In this document: positions 9,701-16,745 of the stretch, piece after piece
How the letters are laid out: each line of letters opens with the position of its first letter
How positions within the stretch are numbered: position 1 is the first letter of the stretch
Assembly (NCBI GenBank): GCA_016219275.1
Contig: JACRBM010000041.1
Coordinates: forward strand, 1 to 51,424
DNA: 51,424 nucleotides
From: Chloroflexota bacterium
Lineage (GTDB): Bacteria; Chloroflexota; Anaerolineae; UBA4142
Reading direction: 5' to 3'
Made by a program: the position numbers and the translations under genes
Notes under the pieces: model-generated
The model's database searches: none
What the model was told of the DNA's origin: nothing
Seen by the model: only the letters and a program-made list of their open reading frames with translations

Positions 9701-9785
9701 TTGTCATTTCGAGGAGCGTTTTTTGCGACGAGAAATCTCGCTTTTGTCAGAGGCGCGGGATTTCTCGCTGCGCTCGAAATGACAA
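9701..9785. repeat. Palindromic dispersed element
   Basis: The outer 13-bp arms TTGTCATTTCGAG (9701-9713) and CTCGAAATGACAA (9773-9785) are perfect inverted repeats; an inner pair GAGAAATC (9730-9737) and GATTTCTC (9759-9766) is nested inside. The element is non-coding and resembles the element inserted in rsmD (16403-16523), whose arms are TGTCATTGCGAG and CTCGCAATGACA. Confidence 0.8.
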
Positions 9786-15901: not shown

Positions 15902-15930
15902 GGATTAGACATTATCGGGGATAGGGCATA

Positions 15931-16003
15931 TCTCGCCAAGCCGCCAAGAACGCCAAGTTTTTTCAATATGATTCTTTGCGTGCTTTGCGTCTTGGCGAGA
16001 GGC
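15931..16003. repeat. Imperfect palindrome of CGCCAAG units
   Basis: TCTCGCCAAG and two further GCCAAG units face CTTTGCGTGCTTTGCGTCTTGGCGAGA, so the segment can fold on itself. No coding content is seen. Confidence 0.6.
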
Positions 16004-16082
16004 AAAAGTTGTTTCCAATAAAGTCTATAAGAGGATGCCTTGCGTTCATTCAAAATGATTGGACATTATCGGTGGTGAAACG

Positions 16083-16745
16083 ATGCGCGTGATTTCCGGC
16101 ACAGCCAGAGGACGTACACTCAAATCGCCAGGTGAGGCGACGCGTCCGATCACCGACCGCGTGAAAGAGAGTTTGTTCAACATTATCGCCGCGGATGTGC
16201 GCGATGCGAACGTGCTCGACCTGTTCGCTGGCGCGGGCAGCGTCGGCATCGAGGCGCTTTCGCGCGGCGCCCGCGCGGCAACATTCGTCGAACTCGACCG
16301 CGCGGCGCTGAACGCGATTCGCGCGAATCTCGAACTGACGCGCTTGACCAGTCGCGCGAGAATCGTGCGGCTCGACGTGTTCAAGTTCATTCGCGGTTAT
16401 CCTGTCATTGCGAGCCGCGAAGCGTCGAAGCAATCTAGCCCTCCCAACCCTCCCCTTGACAAGGGGAGGGCGAAGGTGGGGTTGGAGATTGCTTCGTCGC
16501 AAAGGTCGCTCCTCGCAATGACACCGTTTGATTTGATCTACATCGCGCCGCCGCAGTACAAGGAATTGTGGTCCGAAACACTCAAGACGCTCGACACGCG
16601 CGAGGTGCTCGCACCCGACGGCATCCTCGTCGCGCAGATTCATCCGAAAGAGTACACAGAACTTGCGCTGACCCAGTTCGAACTGTACGATCAGCGCAAG
16701 TATGGCAGCACGATGCTGTGTTTTTATCGAAAGCGTGAGGCGTGA
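16083..16745 (+). CDS. rsmD: 16S rRNA (guanine-966-N2)-methyltransferase RsmD, with inserted repeat
   Basis: RsmD methylates G966 of 16S rRNA using SAM. The N-terminus MRVISGTARGR and motif I VLDLFAGAGSVGIEALSRGA are diagnostic, followed by ELDRAALNAI. The catalytic loop reads PFDLIYIAPPQY. At 220 aa the protein is about 35-40 residues longer than typical RsmD. The excess coincides with codons 107-147, which are encoded by a nested palindromic element (16403-16523) lying in frame between FKFIRG and PFDLIYIAPP. This position is a loop before the active-site strand, so the enzyme may still work. ATG 16083 is chosen because the conserved protein start falls there. Confidence 0.92.
   Translation: MRVISGTARGRTLKSPGEATRPITDRVKESLFNIIAADVRDANVLDLFAGAGSVGIEALSRGARAATFVELDRAALNAIRANLELTRLTSRARIVRLDVFKFIRGYPVIASREASKQSSPPNPPLDKGRAKVGLEIASSQRSLLAMTPFDLIYIAPPQYKELWSETLKTLDTREVLAPDGILVAQIHPKEYTELALTQFELYDQRKYGSTMLCFYRKREA
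16403..16523. repeat. Nested palindromic element inserted in rsmD
   Basis: Three perfect inverted pairs are nested: TGTCATTGCGAG (16403-16414)/CTCGCAATGACA (16512-16523), CGAAGCAATCT (16426-16436)/AGATTGCTTCG (16486-16496), and CCCTCCCCTT (16448-16457)/AAGGGGAGGG (16461-16470). The whole is translated in frame as part of RsmD. Confidence 0.9.

Follow-up and report, generated by a model that had tools for sequence, protein, structure and literature searches.

A palindromic repeat of a dispersed family, in frame within a loop of RsmD in a Chloroflexota genome

The rsmD gene in the window analysed (the whole stretch of 51,424 nucleotides, from the Chloroflexota genome here called G000) contains a 121-bp palindromic element through which the reading frame continues, and which has many copies elsewhere in the same genome (Table 1). 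Our explanation, to which we assign a probability of about 0.87, is that a dispersed palindrome sits in a tolerated loop of RsmD, with the frame kept and the fold intact. The insert would belong to the TGTCATTGCGAG family of non-autonomous palindromes, similar to MITEs and REPs, and within it to a composite subtype whose core is CCCTCCCC. It would occupy a variable loop on the protein surface, flanked by the helix that ends in DVFKFI and by the IAPPQY strand. It presumably arrived by transposition or conversion, and would be read as a flexible loop of ca. 40 residues that leaves the methyltransferase fold intact.

Table 1. Positions of the features discussed (window coordinates, except for the epimerase gene).
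Feature	Position	Strand	Details and evidence
rsmD, 16S rRNA (guanine966-N2)-methyltransferase	16083-16745 (ATG to stop)	+	220 aa including the insert; TIGR00095, PF03602, Foldseek
Complete 121-bp palindromic element, in frame	16403-16523	+	encodes VIASREASKQSSPPNPPLDKGRAKVGLEIASSQRSLLAMT; genome copies, empty site in relatives
Outer left arm TGTCATTGCGAG	16403-16414	+	12 bp perfect, pairs with 16512-16523
Outer right arm CTCGCAATGACA	16512-16523	+	12 bp perfect, pairs with 16403-16414
Second left arm GCGTCGAAGCAATCT	16422-16436	+	perfect 10 bp at 16427-16436
Second right arm AGATTGCTTCGTCGC	16486-16500	+	perfect 10 bp at 16486-16495
Inner CCCTCCC-type repeat, loop of the composite subfamily	16438-16484 (approximate limits)	+	CCTCCCC/GGGGAGG in 19/54 elements; junctions by eye
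Inner perfect hairpin CCCTCCCCTTG-A-CAAGGGGAGGG	16448-16470	+	arms 16448-16458 and 16460-16470
Sugar-phosphate epimerase gene with element	C32:122308-123225 (L238, G000)		

An earlier note on this DNA, made from the letters alone, had described three nested perfect inverted pairs (12, 10 and 11 bp) within 121 bp, and all of them are present. The second pair extends to 15 nt with 93% complementarity, containing the perfect 10 bp, and the 11 perfect bp of the inner hairpin close on a loop of a single nucleotide. The strand of the element folds at -77 kcal/mol versus a mean of -45 for shuffled sequences (z = -7.9, 0 of 200 shuffles), and the search for the arms that the note had suggested gave, for GTCATTGCGAG, 112 matches in the G000 genome (52 + 60) versus none for the reversed control. 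Given these two results, the nested inverted pairs are beyond chance.

The product of the gene passes the equivalog cut-off for RsmD (TIGR00095, 140.2 bits versus 117.5), matches Pfam PF03602, and its predicted structure has 2fpo, the E. coli YhhF/RsmD, as top Foldseek match. The frame is open across the insert, as had been read from the sequence, and no second rsmD was found in the G000 genome. Among the rsmD genes of the family dN/dS lies between 0.08 and 0.21, values that suggest purifying selection on the enzyme. In the AlphaFold model (alignment of 30 sequences, mean pLDDT 89) the insert falls between helix 99-105 and strand 149-154, mostly with pLDDT 55-62; the methyltransferase core is thus predicted to be kept, with the insert as a low-confidence loop, and we infer that RsmD with the insert still methylates G966. 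The motif that follows (16539-16556) reads IAPPQY, and both the alignment consensus and those family relatives that were read have APPQY too; the motif of RsmD is usually (D/N)PPF/Y.

The linker from DVFKFI to [YF]DLIY has 45 aa in G000 versus 6-7 aa in seven relatives in which the site is empty (G001, G003, G004, G005, G010, G011, and G013), and it is also empty in order-level outgroups; the comparison with sister genomes proposed in the note thus gave empty sites. The 38-39 extra residues, just before IAPPQY, agree with the excess of 35-40 that had been estimated ahead of the catalytic motif. Three relatives from other genera carry the same class of element at the identical base pair of rsmD. 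In two of them (G006 and G009) it is flanked by the same 11 bp on the left and 3 bp on the right as in G000, and in the third (G007) the same 11-bp left boundary is found and the sequence reads to ...GCAATGAC, followed by an assembly gap on the right. The right arm in G006 also holds a CCCTTCGACTCCGCTTCGCTCCGCTCAGGA segment, and a similar right-arm segment is present in G000 at C88:90399. Different inserts were found at this site in G012, a short CCCTCCC...CATCCCC/GGGGATG hairpin for which the G012 genome has other copies only if 2-3 mismatches are allowed, and in G008, a CTTGGAACTTGGGAC repeat with 16 matches at up to one mismatch. Hairpin repeats would thus come and go in a single permissive loop of RsmD. 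The dispersed copies, the empty relatives, the preserved frame and the purifying selection together bear out what the note had proposed, an in-frame palindromic insertion of mobile type in RsmD.

The 54 elements examined are those with paired arms in the G000 stretches read, which cover all but about 12 of the 112 arm matches; the paired copies range from 41 to 156 bp. They have in common the outer arms and an GAAGCAATC/GATTGCTTC stem, and are variable in the side segments and the loop. The CCCTCCCC-type hairpin (CCTCCCC/GGGGAGG) was found inside 19 of the 54 and, in the copies listed, occupies the loop with recurring junctions (CAATCTACCCCTCCC...GGGGTTGGAGATTG, by eye) in both orientations; the junctions of the inner repeat in these copies (CAATCTA.../...TTGGAGATTG, again by eye) also occur in both. 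Because of this recurrence the composite in rsmD is probably a widespread subtype and not a local double insertion, and the idea that the inner hairpin had landed there in an older element has to be abandoned in favour of a genome-wide subfamily. The majority of the G000 copies apparently lie outside identifiable genes. The family is patchy in its distribution, present in all 14 genomes of the taxonomic family with 3 to 452 exact arm matches and, in a sample of the class, in 47 of 100 genomes (0 up to 724 copies of the 12-mer). Rfam gave only sub-threshold miRNA and Acido-Lenti-1 scores for the element, and the literature matches listed for the arm sequence seem unrelated, judging by title and abstract.

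Other repeats were seen in the window. Directly upstream of rsmD (15906-16027) there is a second dispersed repeat of ca. 122 bp, which starts near GACATTATCGGG and contains CGCCAAGCCGCCAAGAACGCCAAG; it is 91% identical to a copy at L088, itself nested in an TGTCATTCCGAG element, and 79% identical to one at L119. At 9702-9784 lies a palindrome of a sister family, TGTCATTTCGAG...CTCGAAATGACA, which shares the TGTCAT/ATGACA ends and has similar copies at C15:6345, C26:12137, and C75:6778. Elsewhere in the genome, copies of the TGTCATTGCGAG element coincide with lipoprotein-like N termini or directly precede them (L124, C96:90629; L116, C88:61564; L004, C3:36174), and might there lengthen the signal peptide region in frame.

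Apart from the gene in the window, the element is found in frame in other genes of G000. From a list made by hand, the apparently intact ORFs of this kind number at least eight: rsmD, the sugar-phosphate epimerase, a GH67 gene, a heparinase-like protein, HsdR, an ATPase, a membrane protein, and an NRPS. In all eight the frame of the ORF coincides with VIAS...LAMT; the length of the copy is 1 mod 3 in seven of them, versus 17 of the 46 remaining copies. Pfam domains, scanned in six of the seven ORFs other than rsmD, flank or span the element in the epimerase, GH67, heparinase-like protein and HsdR, and lie on one side of it in the membrane protein; the match in the ATPase was below the cut-off. 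In GH67, the element fills a loop where G012 has an TCCAATCTCCAATCTTC-like stretch. Frame openness is intrinsic to the element, since most copies, coding or non-coding, keep three or four of the six frames open. It is this openness that would keep rsmD in frame, because such copies are the usual ones and those of 1 mod 3 are mostly stop-free as VIAS...LAMT. The epimerase (L238, compared with L239, L240, and L241), chosen solely because G000 has the element in it, repeats the rsmD pattern of occupied and empty relatives. The base pair occupied in G000 has an intact element in G006 as well, a decayed left arm that runs on into other repeat sequence in G001 and G012, and an empty site in G002, G004, G007, G010, and G013. 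The decayed left arms would fit an older insertion.

The flanks of the 54 copies have no excess of matches at offset 0 of the kind left by a target-site duplication (one at k = 3, none at k = 4-9, and numbers near chance at k = 1-2), and display a weak preference for YY at -5/-6 and for A at -8. A Y1_Tnp/RAYT protein was rejected as the mobiliser, as PF01797 does not track copy number; it is absent from G007, with 159 copies, and has a single match each in G000 and G001. No transposase linked to the element family was found, Y1_Tnp being the one tested against copy number.

There are two ways to read the presence of the element at one base pair in several genera. One would be that the RsmD loop is a preferred site that has been occupied more than once, which we think rather probable. 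A wider version of this proposal, in which a palindrome family with a coding-compatible open frame, along with other repeat types, repeatedly enters the same base pair of specific loops (RsmD, the sugar-phosphate epimerase) across genera, in the manner of the rickettsial elements and with an independent origin in Chloroflexi, is offered tentatively, at a little short of even chances. The other alternative, which we consider possible but hold with less confidence, is a single ancient insertion that dates from the base of the family and was passed on vertically, with gene conversion from genomic copies keeping it young in appearance and with many losses or replacements. In the RpoB tree G000, which is occupied, and the empty G001 are sisters (100/99), as are G009, also occupied, and G008 with its other repeat. 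G012, with another repeat again, and the empty G013 fall into one group with the occupied G006; an old insertion would need ca. 8 losses or replacements, each restoring a linker of 6-7 residues. Moreover, the empty linkers of G001, G010, and G013 are alike (RHTQEQ, RRTQEK, and RDTPEP) and look ancestral and not post-deletion, a similarity by which an empty ancestor is favoured.

The arms are also much less diverged than the gene, which speaks against great age. Between G000 and G006 the arm segments have 1 mismatch in 71 versus a difference of 22.9% in the surrounding gene, with P of ca. 8e-8 under an equal rate of 0.24, a value to be taken as a guide and not as a clean test since the segments were chosen by hand around the nested parts. 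From this contrast, the arms would be either far younger than the gene, arriving separately at one base pair, or kept alike by conversion. On the side of an old insertion there is the identical position in G000, G006, G007, and G009, and a second gene, the epimerase, with the same position in different genomes and with its decayed left arms. The 12-nt loops of G006 and G007 are similar as well (8/12, by eye), a hint that these two copies, at least, may be orthologous, and both this partly shared loop and the exact position favour the old insertion. Transfer of an occupied rsmD allele between lineages is ruled out by an AU test on rsmD genes without the linker, which rejected the four occupied genes as one clade (p = 2.6e-5); therefore, the shared allele did not spread along with the rsmD gene.

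Judging by its coding capacity, the element is most likely translated as a loop of RsmD. Alternatively, the transcribed element could be skipped by the ribosome or be removed, as palindromic inserts of Magnusiomyces mitochondria are reported to be (work mentioned in PMC6649704), and the hairpin in the message would indeed be very stable and the fold does not need the insert. However, every occupied copy keeps the frame without a stop, and one common open frame is used, with the 1 mod 3 length in seven of the eight in-frame copies, neither of which bypassing would require, so that we consider it very improbable. No system of this kind is known to us in the Chloroflexi phylum. The persistence of the hairpin at one place in several genera might also suggest that it was co-opted, either as a regulator of rsmD expression or as a functional loop added to the enzyme, but it is absent from most relatives, the inserted peptide tracks the repeat family and not the host protein, and the loop is a low-confidence one in AlphaFold; the chances of this seem slighter still. 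Least probable of all is an assembly error or a pseudogene. The genomes are metagenome-assembled and repeats are hard to assemble, but the same base pair is occupied in separate assemblies, and the open frame, the dN/dS of ca. 0.2 and the single rsmD in the genome also speak against it.

The best-known coding palindromes are those of Rickettsia and Wolbachia, and the one described here would apparently be a second family, in Chloroflexi and unrelated to those. Occupied, empty, decayed and replaced alleles of one loop provide a direct view of how a repeat enters a gene without breaking it, and the Chloroflexi family lets one ask if insertion prefers certain sites and how new protein segments arise. 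With the REP/REPIN systems (Y1/RAYT) the element has in common the short paired inverted repeats, the internal hairpins, and that no target duplication was seen, but no GTAG or CGTC tag was seen in it and the Y1 transposase is not linked to copy number here. REPs, as a rule, lie outside genes. Bacterial MITEs (such as Correia, ERIC, and BOX), for which in-frame fusions are known (PMC10969869), are also non-autonomous with terminal inverted repeats; our element differs in that no target-site duplication was found. The coding palindromes of nematomorph mitochondria are likewise long inverted repeats inside coding sequence, although they are perfect, actively maintained, located in animal mitochondria and not a dispersed family (PMC6649704).

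The nearest parallel, as the earlier note had proposed, is that of the rickettsial palindromic elements (RPEs), dispersed palindromes found in frame in genes, which are described as palindromes of 100-150 bp inserted in ORFs without destroying the frame (Ogata, 2000, as cited in PMC3767692 and PMC10969869). None of the NCBIfam models, among them those for RPEs if present in the collection, matched any of four forms of the insert (one of them an invented hybrid) with an E value of 10 or less, and for this reason, together with the Chloroflexi lineage, we have not filed the element as an RPE. It differs in its host, which belongs to Chloroflexi/Anaerolineae and not to the Rickettsiales, in that most copies apparently lie outside identifiable genes, and in the frequency of the composite subtype with its CCCTCCCC core. 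In R. japonica the RPE type at a locus, or close to it, may differ between orthologues, for which a hotspot or a diverged common origin was offered (PMC3767692). Like the RPEs, the element is dispersed, of similar size (121 bp) and present in many copies (112 arm matches), it lies in frame in unrelated, otherwise conserved genes where it is read in an open frame, and its ends carry ATGAC, frequent in RPE-4/6/7 (PMC3767692). In these respects it works like an RPE.
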